64,000 bases of DNA from Actinospica acidithermotolerans (lineage in GTDB: Bacteria > Actinomycetota > Actinomycetes > Streptomycetales > Catenulisporaceae). Positions within the stretch are counted from its first letter, which is position 1. Each line of letters opens with the position of its first letter. This document shows positions 42,982 to 58,388 of the stretch, one piece after another. Below the pieces are notes generated by a model. That model had not been told where the DNA came from. It searched no databases and worked only from the letters and a program-made list of their open reading frames with translations. The DNA is taken from positions 1 through 64,000 of the forward strand of contig NZ_JAGSOH010000016.1 of assembly GCF_018139625.1 (NCBI RefSeq). Direction: 5' to 3'. The position numbers and the translations under genes are program-made.

Positions 42982-44235
42982 ATGCGCATGCCCCTGAGAA
43001 CTCCCCGCAACACCATCCGGCTCCGGCTGACCCTGCTGTACGCGGCGTTCTTCCTGTTCTCCGGCGCGGTGCTGGTCGCGATCATCTACACGCTGGTCGA
43101 CAGCTCGTCCGGGCCGCTCGTATCGGTCACGCACCTGAACCCGGTGCCGCTCGGGTCCGGCGGCGCGGTGCACACCGAGCCGCCGCAGCCGCTGCAGAGC
43201 AGCCTGGCGCAGGCCGCGCACGCGCAGGAGATGCACGAGCTGCTGGTGAACTCGATGGTCGCGCTGCCGGTGATGGCCGTGGTCTCGGCGCTGCTCGGCT
43301 GGATAGTGGCCGGTCGCGTGCTGCGTCCCCTGCGGGTGATCACCGGCTCGGTCCGCGACATCACGGCGCACCGGCTCAACGAGCGGCTGCTGGTCTCCGG
43401 CCCGCGCGACGAGCTGGCCGAGCTGTCGGAGACCTTCAACGGCCTGCTGGACCGGCTCGAGGCGGCGTTCGAGGCGGAGCGGCTGTTCGTCGCGAACGCC
43501 TCGCATGAGCTGCGTACGCCGCTGACGCGGGAGCGTACGGTGATGGAGGTCGCGCTGCGCGACCGGAATGCGACGGTCGAGACGCTGCGTGCGGCGGGAG
43601 AGCGCGTTCTGGCCTCCGGGCAGCAGTTGGAGAAGCTCATCGAGGCGCTGCTCACGCTCGCCCGCAGCCAGCGCGAAGTCGAGGCGGACGAGCCGTTCGA
43701 CCTGGCCGAGGCAGCCGCGAAGTATGTCGCCACCACGGAGAGCGCGGCACGCGTCGCGAGCGTCACCGTGCACGCGGATCTCGCGCCCGCGCCCGGCCGC
43801 GGCGACCCGCGGCTCGCGGAACGGCTCGTCGCCAACCTCGTGGACAACGCGATCCGGCACAACGTCCCGGGCGGCCACGTGACGGTGCGCACCTGGCAGG
43901 CCGACGGCTCGTCGCACGTGCGGGTCGAGAACACCGGCCAGCTCGTGCCCGCTACGGAACTGCACCGCCTGACGCACCCCTTCCAGCGCCTCGCGCCAGG
44001 CCGGGGGAGCGGCAGCGGAAGCGGCCTCGGGCTCTCCATCGTCCGCGCGATCGCCGCCGCGCACGGGGCGAAGTGCATGCTCGCGTCCCGTCCGGGCGGC
44101 GGCCTCGTCGTCGAGGTCCGCTTCCGCACGCCGCGCGGCCCCCGACCCGGTGACGGATCGGGGGCCGCGCGGGGCAACGGCCATCAGCCGGCGGTGCCGC
44201 CGAAAGCGGATTCGAACTCCTCGATGTCGTCCTGA
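42982..44235 (+). CDS. Sensor histidine kinase
   Basis: A 417-residue membrane kinase. Two transmembrane helices (LTLLYAAFFLFSGAVLVAII and SMVALPVMAVVSALLGWIVA) flank a short outer loop; a HAMP domain follows, then the dimerisation and phosphoacceptor region FVANASHELRTPLTRERTV, the ATP-binding N box LVANLVDNAIRHNV and G box GSGSGLGLSIVRAIA. The C-terminus overlaps the convergent NRPS gene by 52 bases. Its target genes are unknown; the FtsX-type transporter is the nearest candidate. Confidence 0.94.
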   Translation: MRMPLRTPRNTIRLRLTLLYAAFFLFSGAVLVAIIYTLVDSSSGPLVSVTHLNPVPLGSGGAVHTEPPQPLQSSLAQAAHAQEMHELLVNSMVALPVMAVVSALLGWIVAGRVLRPLRVITGSVRDITAHRLNERLLVSGPRDELAELSETFNGLLDRLEAAFEAERLFVANASHELRTPLTRERTVMEVALRDRNATVETLRAAGERVLASGQQLEKLIEALLTLARSQREVEADEPFDLAEAAAKYVATTESAARVASVTVHADLAPAPGRGDPRLAERLVANLVDNAIRHNVPGGHVTVRTWQADGSSHVRVENTGQLVPATELHRLTHPFQRLAPGRGSGSGSGLGLSIVRAIAAAHGAKCMLASRPGGGLVVEVRFRTPRGPRPGDGSGAARGNGHQPAVPPKADSNSSMSS

Positions 44236-47200
44236 TCGAGCGCGATCAGCGAGAAGTCCGACGGGGTGTGGCCGCCTCCGCCGCCGTCGGCCGCGTGCCG
44301 GACGAGACCGCGCAGCGCGGCCTCCCAGCAGGCGGCCAGTTCGGCGAGCTCGGCCTCCGTCAGCAGCGCAGTCGGCGACTCGAGGACGAAGCGCAGCTCG
44401 GGACCTCCGGGCAGGTCCCGCGCCGAGCCGTTGATCTCCAGCACGTGCCGCAGCGGCATCAGCGGGTCCACGCCGCCGCGCATCGCGTGCTCGCCGGCCG
44501 GGGCCCACGGGCGCTGCTCCCGCGTCTCGGGCGCCTCGCCGTCGACGTCGGGGCCCTGCGGCCCACCGAAGCGGCCCAGGTAGTTGAAGCCGATCTGCGG
44601 CGCCGGCAGGTCCGCGAGCACCGGCTGCGTCGCAGGGTTCAGGTACCGCAGCAGGCCGTAGCCCAGGCCGTCTCCCGGCGTCTGCCGCAGCTGCTCCTTG
44701 ACCCGCTTGATCAGCCGCGCCGCGTCCTCGCCGCCGGCCCGGACCTCGGCGGGGTCGATCGCGCCGACCGCCAGCCGGACCGGGTGCACGGTGGTGAACC
44801 AGCCGAGCGTCCGCGTGAGGTCCATGTCCTCGGTCAGCGGCACCCGGCCGTGCCCTTCGCGGTCGACCAGGAATCCGCCCTCGACGCGGCGGCCGCGCGC
44901 CCGCAGCCACTCGTCGAGAGCCGAGGCCAGACCCGCCATCAGCACGTCGTCCACCCCGGCGTGGAACGCGGCGGGAACGTCTGCCAGCAGCGTGCCCGCG
45001 GTGTCCGCCGGGATCAGCATCTCCGCGCGGGAGAAGCCGTTGCCCACGGTGTCGGTCTCCGGGTCGAGCGGCCGGTCCGCGAGCGGGAGGTCGGCGCCGT
45101 CCAGCATCCGAATCCACGTCTGCAGCTCGTCGACTGTCGACTGCGCCCTGGCCAGGTCGGCCAGACCGCTCGCCCAGCGGCGGAACGAGGTCGGCGCCGA
45201 GGTGACGGCCGCCTGGGCCGCGTCCGCGCCGCCCGCGAGCAGCGCGGCGTGCGCGAGGGCCAGGTCGGGCATCAGCACCCGCCAGGACACGCCGTCGATC
45301 ACCAGGTGATGAGCGGTCAGCAGGAGGTAGCCGCTCTCGCCGGGGCCCCGGTCCAGCAGCGCCGCCTGCAGCATCACGCCGTCCTGCGGCGACAGCGCCG
45401 CCTCCGCCGCGGCCGCCTGCTCGTCGATGAGCTCCGCGAGCGCTTCCTCGTCGAGACCGGCGGCGTCCACGACGCGCACGAGCCTCGCCGCCGTCGCCGC
45501 CGAGGAGGCGCCCGCCTCGGGGACCATCAGCTGCTCGCCGTCCGCGTCGAGCCGGGCCCGCAGCACGTCGTGCCGGTCGAGCATGGTTTGGATCACGACG
45601 GTGAGCTGATCGAGCGTCAGGTTCGCGGGCGACGTGAGCAGCATCGCCTGGCTGCCCGAGCGCGCCGCGGAGCCTGCGCGCTCGGCGAGCTCCCGCATCA
45701 CCGGCGTGAGCGGGACCGGGCCGAACGGGATGTCCTCCGCGCCCGCCGCGCTGGCCTCGTCGATCGGCTCGGCCACCCGGGCCAGCTCGGCCGGGGTCCG
45801 CAGCTCGAACACCTGCCGCGGCGTGATCGCCAGACCGGCCTTGCGCGCCCGGCCCGCGACCAGCATCGACATGATCGAGTCGCCGCCGAGCGCGAAGAAC
45901 GAGTCCTCGGCGCCCACCCGCTCGAGGTTCAGCACCTCGGCGAACAGCCGGCAGAGCAACTCCTCGACGTCCGTCGCGGCCGCGCGGCCCGCGGCCTTGC
46001 CGGAGAAGACGGGCGCGGGCAGCTTCGCCCGGTCGAGCTTGCCGTTCACCGTGACCGGCAGCACTTCGAGCACCGTGATCGCCGCCGGAACCATGTAGTC
46101 GGGCAGCTTGGCCGCCACGAACTCCTTGAGCGCCTCCGGGTCGAGCACCGCGTCCGCGTCCTCGGGGACCACGTACCCGGCCAGCCGCCGATGGCCCGCC
46201 TGGCCGTCCTCGAGCGCGACCACGACCGCCTGCTTCACGTCCGGGTGCGCGGCGAGCACGGCCTCGATCTCGGCCGGCTCGATCCGGAAGCCGCGGATCT
46301 TGAGCTGCTTGTCGGCGCGGCCGAGGAAGAGCAGCGTGCCGTCCTCGGTCCACCGGGCGAGGTCTCCGGTGCGGTACATCCGCGCGCCGGCCGGCTCGCC
46401 CGCGACGGGGAACGGGCAGGCCACGAAGCGTTCCGCGGTCAGCGAGGGCCGGCCGACGTAGCCGCGGGCGAGCCCGGCGCCGGCGAGGTAGAGCTCGCCG
46501 GTCATCCCGACGGGCACCGGCTGCAGGAACGCGTCGAGCACGAAGGCCCGCGTGTTGTCCATCGGCCGCCCGATCGGCACCAGGTCCGGCACGGAGCCGG
46601 CGTCGGTGAACGGCAGCTGCGTGGCGAACGCGGTGGCCTCGGTCGGACCGTACGTCGTGCGGACCGTGATACCGGGATGCGCCTGAAGCAGGGTCCTGAC
46701 GGCGTTCGCCGAGACCACGTCGCCGCCGGTGGACACTTCGCGCACGCCGGCGAAGATGTGCGGGGACTGCTCCGCGAGCACCCGGAAGAGTCCGGCGGTG
46801 GCGTGCACGTTCGTCACGTTCTGGGCCGCGATGAGCCGGCCGCGCTCGACGCTGTCGACCTCTCCGGCGGGTGCGAGGACGAGGCGGCCGCCATGCAGCA
46901 GCGTCGCCCAGATCTCGTACGTCGACGCGTCGAACGCGTGGTTGGCCTGCACCAGGACGCGTTCCATGACCTCGGACGACCAGGAGGAGTCGAGGCAGAA
47001 CGCGATCACGCCGCCGTAGGTGACCGCGACCCCCTTCGGCGCGCCGGTCGAGCCGGAGGTGTAGATGACGTACATCAGGCTGTCCGGGGAGACACGCACG
47101 CCGAGCGGGCTCCCGGTCTCGATCTCGCCGGGGACGATCGCCTCGAGCGTGAGCACCTCGATGTCCGGGAAGACGACGCGTTCCGCGTTCGGCTCGTCCA

Positions 47201-49160
47201 CCAGCACGATCGAGACGCCGGCCTCGGCCGCCAGGGCGCTGAGACGCTCGGCCGGGTGCTTGCCGTCCATCGGCACGTACGCCGCACCCGCCTTGACCAC
47301 CGCCAGCAGCGCCGTGATCAGCTCGGGCGAGCGGTTCGCGACGATGCCGACGAGCGTCTCGGGCCCCGCGCCGAGGCCGACCAGGCGGCGGGCCAGCCGG
47401 TTGGCCGCCGAGTCCAGTTCGGCGTACGTCAGCTCGGTCTCCCCGGCGACGACCGCCACCGTCTCGGGAGAGCGGCGGGCCTGCTCCTCGAAGAGTTCCG
47501 CCAAGGTGGCGTCCGGTAGCGGCCTCGCGGTCGCGTTCCATGCCTCGACCAGCTGGTGACGCTCGTCCCCGGTCAGCACGTCGAGCCGGCCGAGCAGCAC
47601 CTCCGGGTCGTCCGCGACCTGACGCAGCAGCAGGAGCACCCGGTCGACGATGGCCCGCGCGGTCTTCTCGTCGAACACGTCCGGGCGGTAGTCCAGGCGG
47701 ATCTCGATGTCGTCGATCGGCGTGATCACGAGCGTCAGCGGATAGTGCGCCGCCTCCTCGCCGCCACCCGACGAGATCCGGATCGCTCCCGGCCCCGGCG
47801 GCACCGGTCCGGGCGGCGGCGCCTGCTCGCCCCCCGCGGCACCCGCGGGCGGCGGACCGAGATGCAGCGGCCCGCCCTTGCTGCCTCCGGGAGGCGGACC
47901 CTGGAGCAGTTGGCCGCCCTGACCATCCGCGGGCGGCGGGCCCATGTGCAGCGGTCCGCCCCGCAGCGGTCCGCCGCGCAGGGCCGCGCCGCCGAGCCCC
48001 TCCGGCGCGGGCGCCGGGCCGCCGGGCTCGGGCGCCTCGGCCTCCTTGCCCGGGGCCGCCATGCCGACGGCGGGCGCGGTCTTCGGGCCGCGCGGGTAGT
48101 TCTGGAACACCATCAGCGTGTCGAAGGTCGCGCCCGGGCCGCCCGCGCGCTGGATCTCGGACAGGCTCAATTGCTGGTGGTCGAGCAGCGCGGACTGCTG
48201 GTCCTGCAACGCGACCAGCGACTTGCGGAACGGCGTGGCCGGGTCCAGGGGCACGCGCACCGGGACCGTGTTGATGAACAGCCCGACCATCCGGTCCGCC
48301 TGCGGCACCTCTGCCGGACGGCCGGAGACCGTGGCGCCGAACACCACGTCGCTGCGCCCGGACAGCTTGCCGACCAGCACCGCCCAGGCGACCTGGAAGA
48401 CCCGGTTCAGCGTCACGCCGGCGGTGCGCGCGACCTCCCGCAGCCGGTCCGCGAGTTCGTCGCCGACCTGGTCGATCACGTGCTGCAGCATGACCGGCGG
48501 GCCGCCGCGGTCGTCCGGACCGACCAGCGTCGCGTCCTCGGTGCCCTCGAGCATCGACCGCCACGCCTCGCGCGCCGCGTCCTTGTCCCGGCGGACCAGC
48601 CACTCCAGATAATCACGGTACTGCGGCACGGTCGGCAGCACCGACGCGTCGCCCGCGTTGCCGTACACCGCCCAGAGCTCGTTGAACAGGATCGGCAGCG
48701 ACCAGCCGTCCATCAGGATGTGGTGCATCGTCACGACCATCCGGTGGCGTCCCGGGCCGATCCGCAGCAGCAGCACGCGCAGCAGCGGCGGGACGCCGAG
48801 GTCGAAGCGGCGCGCGTCGATCGCGGTCAGCCGCTCCGCCTCCGCCTCGGCGTCCTCGTCGGACAGCTCGGTCAGGTCGGCGTGCGTCCACGGGATCTGC
48901 ACGCCCTTCGCGATCACCTGCACGGTGTCGCCGGAGCCGCGGGTGCGGAATCCGGCCCGCAGGCTCGCGTGCCGCTCCAGCAGCGCCTGCCAGGACGCCT
49001 GGAGGACTTCGGGCCGCAGCACGCCGTCCAGGTTCAGGATCCGCTGCCCGACGTACACGTCCCGGGGCGCGCCCTGGTCGTACGCGGCGTGGAAGAGCAG
49101 TCCCTCCTGCAGGGGGGACAGCGGCCAGACGTCCTCGACTGTCAATTGCGACATGATCAT
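44184..49160 (-). CDS. Single-module NRPS, C-A-T-E
   Basis: A 1658-residue nonribosomal peptide synthetase module. Condensation domain ~5-540 with HHILMDG at 146-152; adenylation ~550-1050 with YTSGSTGAPKG, FDASTYEIW, YGPTEAT and NGKLDR; carrier ~1065-1130 with the phosphopantetheine Ser1095 in LGGDSI; epimerisation ~1145-1625 with HHLVIDGVSW at 1284-1293, a GWFTTVHPV stretch and IGFNYLGRF. LGGDS is the form usual before an E domain. The adenylation pocket reads D-A-Y-H-S-G-T-A-F-K by alignment to GrsA positions; D, Y, H, G, T and K match the Dpg-type code as I recall it. There is no thioesterase. Start ATG 49160 overlaps the exporter stop (ATGA); MSQ at 49154 is an alternative. Confidence 0.95.
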   Translation of the reverse strand: MIMSQLTVEDVWPLSPLQEGLLFHAAYDQGAPRDVYVGQRILNLDGVLRPEVLQASWQALLERHASLRAGFRTRGSGDTVQVIAKGVQIPWTHADLTELSDEDAEAEAERLTAIDARRFDLGVPPLLRVLLLRIGPGRHRMVVTMHHILMDGWSLPILFNELWAVYGNAGDASVLPTVPQYRDYLEWLVRRDKDAAREAWRSMLEGTEDATLVGPDDRGGPPVMLQHVIDQVGDELADRLREVARTAGVTLNRVFQVAWAVLVGKLSGRSDVVFGATVSGRPAEVPQADRMVGLFINTVPVRVPLDPATPFRKSLVALQDQQSALLDHQQLSLSEIQRAGGPGATFDTLMVFQNYPRGPKTAPAVGMAAPGKEAEAPEPGGPAPAPEGLGGAALRGGPLRGGPLHMGPPPADGQGGQLLQGPPPGGSKGGPLHLGPPPAGAAGGEQAPPPGPVPPGPGAIRISSGGGEEAAHYPLTLVITPIDDIEIRLDYRPDVFDEKTARAIVDRVLLLLRQVADDPEVLLGRLDVLTGDERHQLVEAWNATARPLPDATLAELFEEQARRSPETVAVVAGETELTYAELDSAANRLARRLVGLGAGPETLVGIVANRSPELITALLAVVKAGAAYVPMDGKHPAERLSALAAEAGVSIVLVDEPNAERVVFPDIEVLTLEAIVPGEIETGSPLGVRVSPDSLMYVIYTSGSTGAPKGVAVTYGGVIAFCLDSSWSSEVMERVLVQANHAFDASTYEIWATLLHGGRLVLAPAGEVDSVERGRLIAAQNVTNVHATAGLFRVLAEQSPHIFAGVREVSTGGDVVSANAVRTLLQAHPGITVRTTYGPTEATAFATQLPFTDAGSVPDLVPIGRPMDNTRAFVLDAFLQPVPVGMTGELYLAGAGLARGYVGRPSLTAERFVACPFPVAGEPAGARMYRTGDLARWTEDGTLLFLGRADKQLKIRGFRIEPAEIEAVLAAHPDVKQAVVVALEDGQAGHRRLAGYVVPEDADAVLDPEALKEFVAAKLPDYMVPAAITVLEVLPVTVNGKLDRAKLPAPVFSGKAAGRAAATDVEELLCRLFAEVLNLERVGAEDSFFALGGDSIMSMLVAGRARKAGLAITPRQVFELRTPAELARVAEPIDEASAAGAEDIPFGPVPLTPVMRELAERAGSAARSGSQAMLLTSPANLTLDQLTVVIQTMLDRHDVLRARLDADGEQLMVPEAGASSAATAARLVRVVDAAGLDEEALAELIDEQAAAAEAALSPQDGVMLQAALLDRGPGESGYLLLTAHHLVIDGVSWRVLMPDLALAHAALLAGGADAAQAAVTSAPTSFRRWASGLADLARAQSTVDELQTWIRMLDGADLPLADRPLDPETDTVGNGFSRAEMLIPADTAGTLLADVPAAFHAGVDDVLMAGLASALDEWLRARGRRVEGGFLVDREGHGRVPLTEDMDLTRTLGWFTTVHPVRLAVGAIDPAEVRAGGEDAARLIKRVKEQLRQTPGDGLGYGLLRYLNPATQPVLADLPAPQIGFNYLGRFGGPQGPDVDGEAPETREQRPWAPAGEHAMRGGVDPLMPLRHVLEINGSARDLPGGPELRFVLESPTALLTEAELAELAACWEAALRGLVRHAADGGGGGHTPSDFSLIALDQDDIEEFESAFGGTAG
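47751..48092 (-). other. Pro/Gly-rich insert in the NRPS condensation domain
   Basis: Codons 357-470 of the NRPS encode a low-complexity stretch rich in Gly, Pro, Ala and Leu between VFQNYP and HYPLTLVI, where condensation domains usually have a short variable loop. It contains GGPLHMGPPPA and GGPLHLGPPPA and a related GGQLLQGPPPG. The frame is intact. Confidence 0.85.
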
Positions 49161-51169: not shown

Positions 51170-53267
<2,098 letters not shown>

Positions 53268-54377
53268 TCACCACTGGATGAGCGCGGTCTCGATCGTCGA
53301 TCCCGGCCCCATGGTCATCAGCACGCCGTGATCGCCCGGCCGCACGACGCCCTCCTGCAGCAGCCGGTCGTACGAGAACAGGAAGCTGCCGCTCGAGACG
53401 TTGCCGAAGTCACGCAGCACGCCGGTCGTGTGCCGCAGATCGTGCCTGGTCAGACCGAGGTTCACCGCGACCGCGTCGATGACCTTCTTGCCACCGGAGT
53501 GCACCAGCCAGTGCGCGATGTCCGCGCGGCGCAGCGAGGTGCCGGCGAGCAGGCGGTCCACCACGATCTCCGCGTGCGCACCGACCACGTAAGGGATCTG
53601 CGGGTCCAGGAAGAAGCTGAAGCGGCCGAGGTCGCGGTCCCAGTCATAGCGCATCGCGTCCGTCGCGTCGGTGATGATGATGCTCGCCGTCTTCAGGATC
53701 CGCGGACCTTCCAGGTCCGACCCGAAGTCCGCCGCGTCCTTGTCCCCGACCTGGTCGGCCAGTATCCCGATTGCGGCCGCGCCGTCGCCGAAGAGGCTGT
53801 TCACGACGGCTGTCCGCATCGTCCCGTCCATCGCGTACGCCGCCGAGCACGCCTCCGCGCAGACCAGCACGGCGAGCTTGCCGGGATTCGCCACCGCCCA
53901 GCCCCGTACCACGTTCAGGGCATTGAGACCCGCGTTGCATCCCATGCCGACGATGTCCGCGCGGCTGGTGTGCCGGTCCATGCCCAGATCCCGGATCAGC
54001 AGGGCGCTGAGGCCCGGAGTGAGGAAACCCGTCGAGGTGACGCAGCACAGGTGCGCCACATCCGACAGGTCGGCGCCGATTCGCTTCAGGCACTGGCTCA
54101 GGGCGTTCGCGCCCATGCCCACCGCCCAGGCTTTGTGCTTGTCCAGCAGGTCGCCCTGCGCCTCCATGATCCGGGTGCCGTCCGCCGCCAGGGGCGGAAG
54201 CACGAGCGAGCGCCGGTCGATGGCGCCCTTGAGGAAGACGGAGCGCACCTTCGGGTCCTCGATCCCGAACAGGTCGAGCACGTCCTGCTGGGTGTAGGAC
54301 TCCGGGGGCACGGCCGTGCCGACGCCGAGGATGCGCGGCGCCGTGACCAGCAACGGTTCGGTCAGGGTCGCGGTCAT
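53268..54377 (-). CDS. dpgA: 3,5-dihydroxyphenylacetyl-CoA synthase DpgA (type III PKS)
   Basis: A 369-residue type III polyketide synthase that joins four malonyl-CoA units to give 3,5-dihydroxyphenylacetyl-CoA. The catalytic triad is visible: Cys in GMGCNAGLNALNVV, His in HWLVHSGGKKVIDAV, and Asn in RDFGNVSSGSFLFSYD. The N-terminus has ILGVGTAVPPESYTQQDVLD. Length and order are as in glycopeptide clusters. ATG 54377 overlaps the hpgT stop. Confidence 0.96.
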   Translation of the reverse strand: MTATLTEPLLVTAPRILGVGTAVPPESYTQQDVLDLFGIEDPKVRSVFLKGAIDRRSLVLPPLAADGTRIMEAQGDLLDKHKAWAVGMGANALSQCLKRIGADLSDVAHLCCVTSTGFLTPGLSALLIRDLGMDRHTSRADIVGMGCNAGLNALNVVRGWAVANPGKLAVLVCAEACSAAYAMDGTMRTAVVNSLFGDGAAAIGILADQVGDKDAADFGSDLEGPRILKTASIIITDATDAMRYDWDRDLGRFSFFLDPQIPYVVGAHAEIVVDRLLAGTSLRRADIAHWLVHSGGKKVIDAVAVNLGLTRHDLRHTTGVLRDFGNVSSGSFLFSYDRLLQEGVVRPGDHGVLMTMGPGSTIETALIQW

Positions 54378-55666
54378 GCTGTGGTCTCCGTTTCTATGAA
54401 CCGCACAAGGCGCTCGACGCCGAGCTCGATCTCCTCAGACGTCAGATAGCTGATGGACATCCGGATGTCCTGCTCGCCGCCGCCGTGCGGGTAGAAGAAC
54501 TCCATGGGCGTCCAGATCACGCCGAACTCGCGCGCCGAACGCTCCAGCGCGGCGATGTCGGTACGGAAGCTCGTGCGCAGCGTGAGGAAGAACCCGCCGT
54601 TCGGCCGGTTCCAGTCCACGCCGAGCTCGTGCCGCCGCGCTTCGGGCAGCCGCCGATCGAGCTGCGCGAGGGTGCCGGCCATGCTGCGGCTGTAGCGTTC
54701 GGCAGCCTCCGCGTTGAGCTCGGAGAGCCGTCCGTCGACGCTCAGCAGCGCACCCGCCGCGATGGCCTGGCTGAGCGACGAGGTGTTGACCGTTATCATG
54801 CTCTTGATTTTCGCCAGATCCTCGGCGAGCAGCCGGATCTCGCCGCCGGGGCCGCGCACCTCCTGGTCGGCCAGCACGTAGCCGACCCGGGCGCCGGGGA
54901 ACACGGTCTTCGAATACGTGCCGAGCTGGATCACGCAGCCGGACTCGTCGAGCGCCTTGAGCATCGGCAGGCGCGCGGCGGCTCCGGTGAGCCGATAGGG
55001 GCTGTCCTCCAGGATGAGCAGGCCGTGTCGCTCGGCGAACGCGAGCAGTGCGGTCCGCGTCGGCAGGTCGAGCGTGGAGCCGGTCGGATTCGCGTAGTCC
55101 GGCACGACGTACAGCGCCTTGGGGCGGCGGCCCGCCGAACGCAGCGAGCGCACCGCGTCGTCGAGATCCGCGACGACGAGTCGGCCGTCTCGCTCGGGCA
55201 CGGACACGACCGGGACGTCGAGCAGCCGCGCGGCCCCGATGATCCCGACGTAGCACGGCGTGACCAGCAGCAGCACGTCCTCGGGATCTGCGAAAAGCGC
55301 ACGCAGCGTCAGGAACATCGCCTCCTGCGCACCGACCGTGACCACGATCGCCTCGGGCGCGGCCTTGAAGCCCTCATCCTGCTGCAGCGAGTGCGCGATG
55401 AGTTCCCTGATCTGCCCGGCGGTCGGGCCGTACTGGTGGAAGCCGCGCCGTACCTCGGCCGGCGAGGCACCGCGGTCCGCCAGGTACGCGGCGTACCGGC
55501 GAAGGTGCCGGTGGATGTCCTCGATTTCGAAGAAACCGTCGTAAGGGCGCCCCGGTGCGAAGGAAACCGCGTCCGGGTAGGTGAATGTTATCTCATTGAG
55601 GAAATTCATCCGGTCGAGAGCCGGATCATCAACACTCGAATGAAGAGTGTTCGAGTCGAACAGCAT
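54374..55666 (-). CDS. hpgT: Phenylglycine aminotransferase HpgT/PgaT
   Basis: A 430-residue PLP aminotransferase of fold type I. It has YGPTAGQIRELIAHSL, an IVVTVGAQEAMFLTLRAL region, the PLP-contact VVPDYANPTGSTLDLPTR, and the Schiff-base Lys in LGTYSKTVFPGARVGYVLAD. It converts 3,5-dihydroxyphenylglyoxylate to Dpg with an amino-group donor. It is the first gene of the operon. ATG 55666 is chosen over an upstream TTG at 55765; no ribosome site is present, and CAGCCT lies six bases upstream, so a leaderless start is possible. Confidence 0.94.
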   Translation of the reverse strand: MLFDSNTLHSSVDDPALDRMNFLNEITFTYPDAVSFAPGRPYDGFFEIEDIHRHLRRYAAYLADRGASPAEVRRGFHQYGPTAGQIRELIAHSLQQDEGFKAAPEAIVVTVGAQEAMFLTLRALFADPEDVLLLVTPCYVGIIGAARLLDVPVVSVPERDGRLVVADLDDAVRSLRSAGRRPKALYVVPDYANPTGSTLDLPTRTALLAFAERHGLLILEDSPYRLTGAAARLPMLKALDESGCVIQLGTYSKTVFPGARVGYVLADQEVRGPGGEIRLLAEDLAKIKSMITVNTSSLSQAIAAGALLSVDGRLSELNAEAAERYSRSMAGTLAQLDRRLPEARRHELGVDWNRPNGGFFLTLRTSFRTDIAALERSAREFGVIWTPMEFFYPHGGGEQDIRMSISYLTSEEIELGVERLVRFIETETTA

Positions 55667-55678: not shown

Positions 55679-55797
55679 ACATGGTGCGTCGTGGCCGGGC
55701 AAGCGCTCGGTGAATCGCGCAGGGGCTGAGATCAAGGCAGCGTCGAAAACTGATTCACATTTCAACGAGGAGGCCGCCGGAGCGGACCGGAAAAGCG

Positions 55798-55827
55798 AAG
55801 GAGGACCGGCCGAAGCCGGTCCTCCTT
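55798..55827 (-). terminator. Perfect hairpin terminator after the LmbU-type gene
   Basis: Arms 55798-55810 and 55815-55827 (13 bases, perfect) enclose a four-base loop, followed on the minus strand by TCGCTTTTCC. It lies 48 bases beyond the LmbU-type stop and isolates that gene from the hpgT operon. Confidence 0.85.
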
Positions 55828-55874
55828 GAGGATTCGCCGTGTATTTCGTCCCGCCGGCGGGACACGCCGGCGGG

Positions 55875-56486
55875 TCAGCCGTCGCCCGACGAGGCCTCGT
55901 CGAGCCGCTGCGTCATCCACTGCGCCAGTTCCTCGCCGGCCTGCGCGGCGGCCGCGCGCCACAGATCCATCCGGCCGTTGCCGACCCGCAGCCGTAGCAC
56001 GTCGTCCTCGGTCGGCGGCGCGTCCACCGCACGCAGCGCCGCACGGACCTCGGTGCGCAACCTGTTGCGAGACCAGCGATTCTGCTCGGCGAGCGCGAGC
56101 CACTCGCTCTGCAGCGCCGCATCGAGCGCGGCCACCTCGGCGTGGTGCTGGAAGCTCAGCGCCGGACGGCGCCGCGGCGGCGGCACCCGGTTCGCCACCC
56201 AAGCGTAGTTACGCAGCGTCTGGTAGTCGAAGGCCGTGACCTCGATGACCCGCCGGTAGCGCTCCGGAAAGCGCGATCTGCCGTAGACGAGCCAGTCGCC
56301 GAGCCACCAGGTCGACGAATCCATCGTGCGATCGAGCTGGACGCCGATCCGCGTCCACTCCTCGATCGTCAGGCCCTCCCGGAGCAGGAGCGACGTGCGT
56401 CGGGTGACAGCGTTCGTATGCAGCGGGGCGGCCGTGGCGGCCCCCTGCGACACGATGTTCTTCACGGAAACGCCGATTGGTGCCAT
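55875..56486 (-). CDS. LmbU-family transcriptional regulator
   Basis: A 203-residue protein matching the LmbU family, first seen as the activator in the lincomycin cluster and later in others such as himastatin. Hallmark stretches are WTRIGVQLDRTMDSSTWWLG, DWLVYGRSRFPERYRRVIEV, FDYQTLRNYAWVANRVPPPR and LSFQHHAEVAALDA, followed by QNRWSRNRLRTEVRAAL, the presumed DNA-binding segment. It lies just upstream of the Dpg-NRPS operon and is the likely pathway activator. A paralogue is encoded at 56951. Confidence 0.9.
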   Translation of the reverse strand: MAPIGVSVKNIVSQGAATAAPLHTNAVTRRTSLLLREGLTIEEWTRIGVQLDRTMDSSTWWLGDWLVYGRSRFPERYRRVIEVTAFDYQTLRNYAWVANRVPPPRRRPALSFQHHAEVAALDAALQSEWLALAEQNRWSRNRLRTEVRAALRAVDAPPTEDDVLRLRVGNGRMDLWRAAAAQAGEELAQWMTQRLDEASSGDG

Positions 56487-56680
56487 CGAACCCGCCTTCC
56501 CCTTGACGGAATTTCAGGCAGAGCCCGGCGGCCGTAGTCGTCCCCGTATACGTCGACGCGGTGCCGGGCCCTGGACCGGGTCGGGAGACACGGGCGAAGC
56601 CCGCCGGCCGCGGACCCTGTGATTGCCTCATTCTCCCCGGCGCACCGCGCCGGCGCCATGCTTGCGCCGAGCGAACCCGT

Positions 56681-56881
56681 TCAGCCCGGCTCGCCGGCCG
56701 GCTGCTCCGGGCCGAACGGCTCGTCCGCCGGAACGAGCACGTTGAGCACGGTGAGCGCGCGGCCGCAGTGCGGGCAGGCGTGCGCCATGCCGAGCGCGGC
56801 GCCGTCCGTCTCCGGCTCGGGCAGGGTCGACGCGGCGTGCAAGGCGGGCCGCCGGGCGTCGAGGGGAGGCGTGGGGTTCAC
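56681..56881 (-). CDS. Small CxxC protein between the two LmbU-type genes
   Basis: A 66-residue protein, not assigned. It contains one CPHCGRALTVLNVLVP segment, a zinc-ribbon-like knuckle with a single CxxC; the rest is rich in Pro, Ala and Glu. Start GTG 56881 has a strong GGAGGAG four to five bases upstream, which supports translation. It lies 69 bases after the end of the second LmbU-type gene, and 194 bases separate it from the other. The single knuckle could form a metal site by dimerisation. I see no terminator between 56487 and 56680. Confidence 0.7.
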   Translation of the reverse strand: MNPTPPLDARRPALHAASTLPEPETDGAALGMAHACPHCGRALTVLNVLVPADEPFGPEQPAGEPG

Positions 56882-56950
56882 GGGGCTCCTCCATGAAGAG
56901 CTGTCGGATGTGGGTGTCTCGACAGTCGTCGTGACCGCTTCCGGAAGGTC

Positions 56951-57607
56951 TCAGGGTACGGCCGGCGTCGCGGCGCGGTCCAGGATCTGGACGATCCACT
57001 CGTCGAGCTGCAACTGCGCGGACTGCGCGGCCCGCTGCCACCGCTCCTGCCGCTCGCGCAGCACGTTCAGCGTGAACAGCACGTCGGCCCGCGTACGCAG
57101 CGCGGCCCGGTCCTCGCGCAGCCGACGTCGCAGTTCATTGCGACTCCAGCGGCCCGCCTCGGCCCGCTCCAGCCAGTGCCCGCGCTCCGGCTCAGGCAGG
57201 CTGGCCGTCTCGGCGTGGTGCTGGAAGCTGAGCCGCTCCCGCCGCTGCTCCGGCAGGTACTTCCGGGCCACCCAGGCGTAGTTCCGCAAGGTCTGGTAGT
57301 CGAGGTTCGTCTCGGCCAGCATCAGCTCGTAGCGGTCCGGGAAATGGCTCTCGCCGTAGATCAGCCAGTCGCCGAGCCACCAGGCCGAGGAGTCGGCGAC
57401 GACGAACAGCTGCCTGCCGAGGTTCACCCAGTCGGGCATGCCGAGGCCCGAGGGCAGCCGCAGCGCGGTGCGCTGCGTGGCGGCTCGCAGTCGTTTCAGG
57501 GCGTTCACGCGCTCGCCCTCGCGCCCGGTCGGCGAGGTGTCGGCCCCCGGTTCGCCGTCCGCGGCCCGCACCACGAGCGTGGCGGCCTGCGTGGTGGTCA
57601 GCGTCAT
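56951..57607 (-). CDS. LmbU-family transcriptional regulator (second copy)
   Basis: A 218-residue LmbU-type protein. It shares WVNLGRQLFVVADSSAWWLG, DWLIYGESHFPDRYELMLAE, LDYQTLRNYAWVARKYLPEQ, LSFQHHAETASLPEPERG and AGRWSRNELRRRLREDRAAL with the copy at 55875. The N-terminus (residues 1-45) is longer and Thr/Ala-rich. ATG 57607 is preceded by AGGAG nine bases away; upstream codons in the frame lack homology. The pair may act on the same or different promoters. Confidence 0.9.
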   Translation of the reverse strand: MTLTTTQAATLVVRAADGEPGADTSPTGREGERVNALKRLRAATQRTALRLPSGLGMPDWVNLGRQLFVVADSSAWWLGDWLIYGESHFPDRYELMLAETNLDYQTLRNYAWVARKYLPEQRRERLSFQHHAETASLPEPERGHWLERAEAGRWSRNELRRRLREDRAALRTRADVLFTLNVLRERQERWQRAAQSAQLQLDEWIVQILDRAATPAVP

Positions 57608-57776
57608 GCTCCCGTCTCCTCTCACGTCCTGCCCCCGGGCGCCGCCCGAAGACCTCCCCCGAGTGGTCTGCTTGTGATTGTCGCAATGCGACGGGTTGCA
57701 GGAAGGTGACACGTCGGCATCCGGACACTGCATCAGAGTGCTGGGAAGACTCCGGGACCTGTCCCCGCGCGCTGTG

Positions 57777-57788: not shown

Positions 57789-58388
57789 ATGACGACCGAA
57801 GCCAGGCGCGCCGCCGGCCCCCGGAGTTTCGCGAACGTGACCCTGCGCACCGAGCGCCTGCTGCTGCGCCCCTGGGCCGAGGCCGACATCGACGCCATCA
57901 CCGCGGCGTGCCAGGACCCGGAGATCCAGCGCTACGTCCCGATCCCGGCGCCGTACTCCCGCACCGACGCCGAGGTCTTCGTGCGCGAGGTACTTCCCGC
58001 GGGCCGCGCGGCGGGAACCGACGTCGTATTCGGCGTCTTCGACGCGGACACCGCCCTCCCCGTCGCGTCCGTAGGCCTGCACCGCATCAAGCACCTCGAC
58101 GCCCCCTGTGGCGGCACCGCCGAGATCGGCTACTGGGCCACCCCCGCCGCCCGCGGCCTCGGCTACACCACCGAAGCCGTGCGCGAAGTCTGCCGCTGGG
58201 CCTTCGCCGACCTCGCCCTCGCCCGCGTCGAATGGCTCGCCCTCGCCGGCAACGAAGGCTCATGGCGCGTAGTCGAGAAACTGGGGTTCACGCGCGAGGG
58301 CACCCTCCGCTTCTACACAATCCAACGGGGCGCCCGCCACGACATGTGGATCGCCTCTCTCCTGAGAAGTGAGGCGAAGCTGGGCTGA
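57789..58388 (+). CDS. GNAT acetyltransferase, RimJ/RimL type
   Basis: A 199-residue N-acetyltransferase. Features are the opening LRTERLLLRPWAEADIDAIT, a GGTAEIGYWATPAARGLGYT acetyl-CoA region, TTEAVREVCRWAFADLALAR, and ALAGNEGSWRVVEKLGFTRE. The family acetylates ribosomal N-termini, amines or antibiotics; the target is unknown. ATG 57789 fits a leaderless start. The gene is divergent from the second LmbU-type gene. Confidence 0.9.
   Translation: MTTEARRAAGPRSFANVTLRTERLLLRPWAEADIDAITAACQDPEIQRYVPIPAPYSRTDAEVFVREVLPAGRAAGTDVVFGVFDADTALPVASVGLHRIKHLDAPCGGTAEIGYWATPAARGLGYTTEAVREVCRWAFADLALARVEWLALAGNEGSWRVVEKLGFTREGTLRFYTIQRGARHDMWIASLLRSEAKLG

Follow-up and report, generated by a model that had tools for sequence, protein, structure and literature searches.

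Regulators of the LmbU and StrR families help decide whether glycopeptide-type clusters stay silent. Joint overexpression of strR and lmbU raised the yield of a type V glycopeptide, the product of a cryptic cluster, 6.5-fold (PMC7567792, excerpt), StrR-like regulators carry a ParB-like domain and an HTH (PMC10886168, excerpt), and the domains of LmbU have been described together with a disulfide dimer formed in vitro through its Cys12 (PMC6510168, excerpt). This cysteine-mediated homodimer is known for LmbU only and is no requirement of the family. The mode of action of LmbU is still poorly understood.

The window, the whole 64,000-nucleotide stretch of Actinospica acidithermotolerans DNA that was analysed, carries on its minus strand, in this order, LmbU2 (56951-57607; ATG at 57607, 218 aa), a 66-codon CxxC gene (56681-56881), LmbU1 (55875-56486; 203 aa), a hairpin, an hpgT-like gene (54374-55666), dpgA (53268-54377), dpgB (52577-53251), dpgC (51342-52580), an ABC exporter and, belonging to the same cluster, an NRPS gene (44184-49160; condensation, adenylation, carrier and further condensation-type matches). 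The dpgA, dpgB and dpgC products scored 640, 252 and 584 bits against cut-offs of 425, 140 and 530, respectively. The aminotransferase was called HpgT-like by similarity to the homologues of its neighbours, its start at 55666 was placed by homologues, and no curated model named HpgT was reached. Two CGCCGGCG palindromes, the published LmbU site, together form a hairpin at 55850-55874. A likely terminator lies at 55799-55826 on the minus strand, a 12-bp GC-rich hairpin with a UUCG loop and a U-rich tail (z -5.4 for 55780-55880). With so strong a terminator-like hairpin between LmbU1 and hpgT, the regulators and the Dpg genes need not share one transcript. With 22 occurrences in the window against 21 expected, the CGCCGGCG palindrome shows no enrichment, and we therefore draw no LmbU regulon from it. 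On the plus strand, 57790-58388 encodes what we take to be a GNAT-like acetyltransferase, divergent from and adjoining LmbU2. Between LmbU2 and this divergent gene there is a perfect inverted repeat, GTCGCAATGCGAC, of 13 bases with the middle one unpaired (57680-57692), a possible operator; it was not seen in the upstream stretch of the one relative compared (L047).

The first-pass annotation had reported two diverged LmbU genes in tandem upstream of the Dpg operon, and this was borne out: they lie head to tail upstream of hpgT-dpgA-dpgB-dpgC, with scores of 209.8 bits for LmbU1 and 217.0 bits for LmbU2 against NF038070 (cut-off 125; model positions 1-171 of 171). It had also held that LmbU genes usually occur singly. 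Of the 73 LmbU loci fetched, 14 contained two LmbU genes within about 20 kb, so that pairs as such are not rare; head-to-tail neighbours were restricted to the window and two relatives. In the two relatives, which belong to the same family as the window organism (G007 and G013), the twins lie about 45-55 bp apart and are followed by hpgT-like genes; the small gene does not lie between those twins. No StrR-like gene was found in the twin-LmbU stretches of G007 and G013 or within the window, and StrR-like genes are present elsewhere in all three genomes. Because the twins are followed by hpgT-like genes and the stretch holds no StrR-like gene, LmbU1 stands in the position that StrR occupies in Streptomyces, and it may have replaced StrR functionally. 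Neither twin translation contains a cysteine, and a disulfide dimer of the Cys12 type therefore cannot form in the LmbU proteins of the window.

In a tree of 86 LmbU rows, LmbU1 of the window, L047 and L048 formed one clade (support 99/93), and LmbU2 of the window sat in an unresolved fork, by tree path nearest the small-protein-linked Streptomyces LmbU; both window rows are on long branches and the bootstrap had not settled. A recent LmbU duplication was ruled out, within the same limits, by the separation of the LmbU1 clade from LmbU2. The genome of the window holds a third LmbU gene of another clade (L051; G000:C22:53215-53790), and no small gene, StrR-like gene or hpgT was seen in the 19 kb fetched around it. 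Another recurring pair of diverged LmbU genes, on opposite strands and with about 4 kb between them, was noticed in Streptomyces (L143, L146 and L148 in G208, G053 and G171).

The gene between the twins had been described beforehand as a 66-residue GTG-started frame with one CPHC and a strong ribosome site. We confirmed each of these features: it lies 70 bp after LmbU2, and GGAGGAG (56886-56892, minus strand) is separated from the GTG by four bases (CCCC). The G+C content by codon position was 0.81/0.60/0.96, a sliding plot showed the frame signal fading past either end, and the codon pattern was like that of the neighbouring genes. In the 13 Streptomyces homologues the ribosome site is AGGAGG (11) or GGGAGG (2), followed by four bases and ATG. 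Judged by the codon pattern of its neighbours and by these homologues, the small gene is real.

A plain search with the window protein of 14 genomes of its family gave credible relatives in G007 (44%) and G013 (47%); five further weak matches had internal stop codons and were left out. With a three-row profile (A1), the 383 genomes scanned from the order gave matches in G342, G359, G022, G375 and, more weakly, in G259; matches in G099 and G005 and a second one in G000 were left out as weak or interrupted by stops. An eight-row profile (A2), applied to 392 Streptomyces genomes, gave 12 matches at 105-154 bits, eight of them outside the training rows, with the next at 34 bits; the 13 genomes that scored no higher than 34 bits were disregarded, and at five of these (L203-L207) no LmbU was found. 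Among 394 genomes drawn from the whole class, A2 exceeded 41 bits only in the window and G022. Weak matches there came from G396, G041, G521 and G491, and no LmbU was seen on reading the ORFs of the first three (L164-L166). Mailhella and Brevibacterium stretches (38-44%) from an initial collection scan were not counted. Neither the window form nor that of L100 found a match in the plasmid collection. Since a Streptomyces chartreusis plasmid copy came to light only through its StrR-like neighbour, that null result is weak evidence. The small-protein family is rare and patchy.

Sixteen aligned homologues share an invariant L-x5-C-P-x-C-G-x3-T core (LGxAHxCPxCGxxLTVxNVLV in the window). The CPxCG pair holds the only cysteines invariant in all 16 rows; the histidine ahead of it is missing in L200. 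Against the 16-row profile the window protein reached 51 bits, and against A1 it reached 82; it is among the training rows of both. The Streptomyces relatives are longer (85-137 aa) and have an additional N-terminal treble-clef-like finger (CxxC..FC...C), most showing CxxC, then RRFC...C and RWWR, ahead of the CPxCG core. The window protein and L047 lack this finger, and so does L049 to the extent that its contig covers the gene. The window protein would be a short representative of a zinc-knuckle family that has no name so far; in its lineage the N-terminal finger is lost and constraint may be relaxed. Nine of 11 close pairs had dN/dS of 0.34-0.54, the pair L195/L197 had 1.04, and the pair L047/L049 differed by eight nonsynonymous and two synonymous changes. 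The G013 copy has no ATG, GTG or TTG start at a sensible place. In L098 (6975-7349) the C-terminal tail is in a different frame from that of L099 and L193, which suggests a frameshift after CPxCG.

The small gene is linked to LmbU, and in Streptomyces the two share a control region. Although profile A1 contained nothing of LmbU, the small gene adjoined a divergent LmbU in G342, G359, G022 and G375. In a fresh test, seven of the eight new strong matches among the 392 Streptomyces genomes lay beside LmbU in the same arrangement; no LmbU was found in the stretches fetched for the eighth (G262) and for G259. In total, 11 Streptomyces loci had the small gene divergent from LmbU and a StrR-like gene after LmbU, and a StrR-like gene was next in line in all 13 Streptomyces genome loci. 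The S. chartreusis plasmid (NZ_CP108841.1) provided a fourteenth locus with a StrR-like gene and the small gene, and no LmbU in 19 kb. On plasmids, homologues of the StrR-like genes bear the annotation 'streptomycin biosynthesis regulator' or 'ParB N-terminal domain-containing protein'; the StrR-like genes also share 49% identity with a Nonomuraea gerenzanensis protein whose gene lies 3 kb from vanY, and matched only an HTH in Pfam. An hpgT-like gene and dpgA follow in nine of the 14 Streptomyces loci; the fetched stretches of L101, L102, L193, L200 and L266 showed neither. Conservation with LmbU, on which the proposal for the small ORF had been made to depend, was also found in the family of the window, where the G013 copy lies 2.3 kb from the tandem LmbU genes (thus within 3 kb), on the opposite strand and adjoining an NRPS gene. 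In G007 the small gene and the twins are on separate contigs, the small gene at the end of its own. From comparison of sequences, this conservation beside LmbU makes a regulator-modulating role appear well motivated.

The linkage is selective. Among the 73 LmbU loci drawn from the order, the window included, six carry the small gene within the fetched stretch (the window, L047 and L098-L101), and L048 is a likely seventh, its small gene being located on a separate contig; most LmbU proteins therefore work without the small protein. A StrR-like match was present in five of the 73. The four at 583-606 bits carry the small gene, and the fifth (L107, 319 bits) does not. Adding seven later loci, which were fetched because they had the small gene, brought the LmbU loci with a StrR-like match of at least 583 bits that carry the small gene to 11 of 11. 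L125 has LmbU and an HpgT-like gene and no small gene. Of 49 dpgA matches over the cut-off, all four with LmbU within about 10 kb have the small gene, and none of the 45 without LmbU has it (best 17 bits), 14 of these having a StrR-like match of at least 100 bits within about 10 kb. Hence neither dpgA nor StrR as such predicts the small gene; this LmbU/StrR subtype does. Three loci (L102, L200 and L266) have the small gene and a StrR-like gene (536-545 bits) with no LmbU in the fetched stretch, so LmbU cannot be its sole partner. In the window and in G013, no StrR-like gene accompanies the small gene at the locus. One dpgA gene (L234, G012:C35, 12707-13900) is split over two frames, through a sequencing error or a frameshift.

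We consider it about an even bet (probability roughly 0.5, for the explanation as a whole, the shortened form in the window included) that the small protein is a zinc-knuckle accessory of the LmbU/StrR switch in Hpg/Dpg peptide clusters. A small CxxC protein that tracks the activators and shares the divergent control region of LmbU is most simply read as an accessory of their switch, and the published activator roles of StrR and LmbU (PMC7567792, excerpt) support this. Streptomyces loci typically have the small gene and LmbU diverging from one control region, with the StrR-like gene after LmbU and then hpgT and dpgA, and the full-length protein combines the N-terminal treble-clef-like finger with the C-terminal CPxCG knuckle. 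Through this knuckle the protein might touch LmbU, or the LmbU/StrR complex on DNA, and might tune activator activity in response, perhaps, to zinc or thiol state; both the contact with LmbU and the direction of the effect are conjectural. Zinc binding is predicted from the cysteine pattern and weak finger matches. A single CxxC supplies two ligands; the short form would therefore have to dimerise, bind a partner or draw on further ligands, and for this reason protein contact was made part of the proposal. In the family of the window, StrR is missing from the locus, LmbU1 occupies its place, and the small protein retains the C-terminal knuckle only. The fullest version, in which the microprotein is a third switch component acting by direct contact under zinc or thiol gating and the second LmbU replaced StrR in the family of the window, is a tentative proposal that we regard as possible though doubtful. 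The NRPS-adjoining G013 copy with no ordinary start, the 8:2 ratio of changes in L047/L049 and the weak structural models count against the accessory reading, as do the three loci with no LmbU and the rarity of the small gene among LmbU loci.

The small protein could instead be a separate DNA-binding regulator, whose N-terminal finger would recognise a site of its own in the divergent promoter and control LmbU and StrR from that position. One of eight full-length members scanned (L199) reached the PF03884 YacG cut-off (25.7 bits against 25.5), and PF11706 zf-CGNR, a finger proposed to bind DNA, matched the N-terminal part of the full-length family weakly. AlphaFold models were weak (pLDDT 67 and 62.5); the Foldseek matches to a model, among them YacG (4tma) and a CGNR protein, Jann_2411 (3h0n, prob 0.85), all fell short of E<=0.001. 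The finger of Jann_2411 is described as likely DNA-binding (PMC2954205, excerpt). A shared control region is counted in favour of the accessory reading: GTTAC/GTAAC occurred 28 times in the 4,229 bp of 13 small-gene intergenic regions, at least once in each, and 57 times in 236,001 bp elsewhere in the loci, a 27-fold difference in density for a motif chosen after inspection in related loci. It is kept in two loci without LmbU, which favours a separate regulator; being picked post hoc, from related loci, and present without LmbU, it cannot be taken to mark an LmbU site. The motif was not found in the regulatory stretches of the window inspected. GTTAC-type repeats with a 7-base gap occurred in none of 215 loci and those with 5-8 bases between in four, and repeats with mismatches were at background level in the window. 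The window protein gave no PF03884 match. The versions in the window and its relatives lack the N-terminal finger entirely, which makes a separate regulator unlikely.

Placement beside NRPS genes might point to a role in biosynthesis, as a metallochaperone, carrier or NRPS/P450 helper merely placed by the regulators. The clusters are NRPS clusters, the small gene adjoins the 3' end of a large NRPS gene in G013 and G007, and the CPxCG knuckle is weakly LysW-like. In 14 Streptomyces loci, however, the gene is beside regulators rather than enzymes, and it is missing from the 45 other dpgA loci, so that we hold this role to be quite unlikely. That the two-finger Streptomyces form works and the short form is a decaying remnant would fit the lost finger, the odd start in G013 and the changes in L047/L049; the intact ribosome site, start, frame, codon pattern (0.96 third-position G+C) and core of the window gene render it improbable. 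A chance ORF without product, conceivable for a short frame spotted by eye, is scarcely credible given homologues in 13 Streptomyces genomes and a plasmid with the same core, a similar ribosome site and like neighbours.

If a neighbouring small protein does set activator activity, as the accessory reading holds, it would offer a simple extra handle for waking silent clusters and would explain part of LmbU control. The portions available of openly licensed PMC papers on LmbU and StrR-like regulators contained no mention or functional test of the small gene. One of the closest described systems, the type V glycopeptide cluster GP6738, has lmbU (orf10) with strR (orf11) in an Hpg-peptide cluster, like 11 of our Streptomyces loci (PMC7567792, excerpt); the excerpt does not mention the small gene, and the window locus differs in having no StrR. 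The YacG (PF03884) and CGNR (PF11706) treble-clef fingers share CxxC..(R)FC...C with the N-terminal part of the full-length family, whereas the small-protein family has an extra second knuckle, CPxCG, and the window protein is without the N-terminal part. Within the LmbU family (NF038070), which includes LmbU of lincomycin and HmtD of himastatin, both window twins keep the WWLGDWL...DYQTLRNYAWVA core, and the window is set apart by having two different LmbU genes in tandem.
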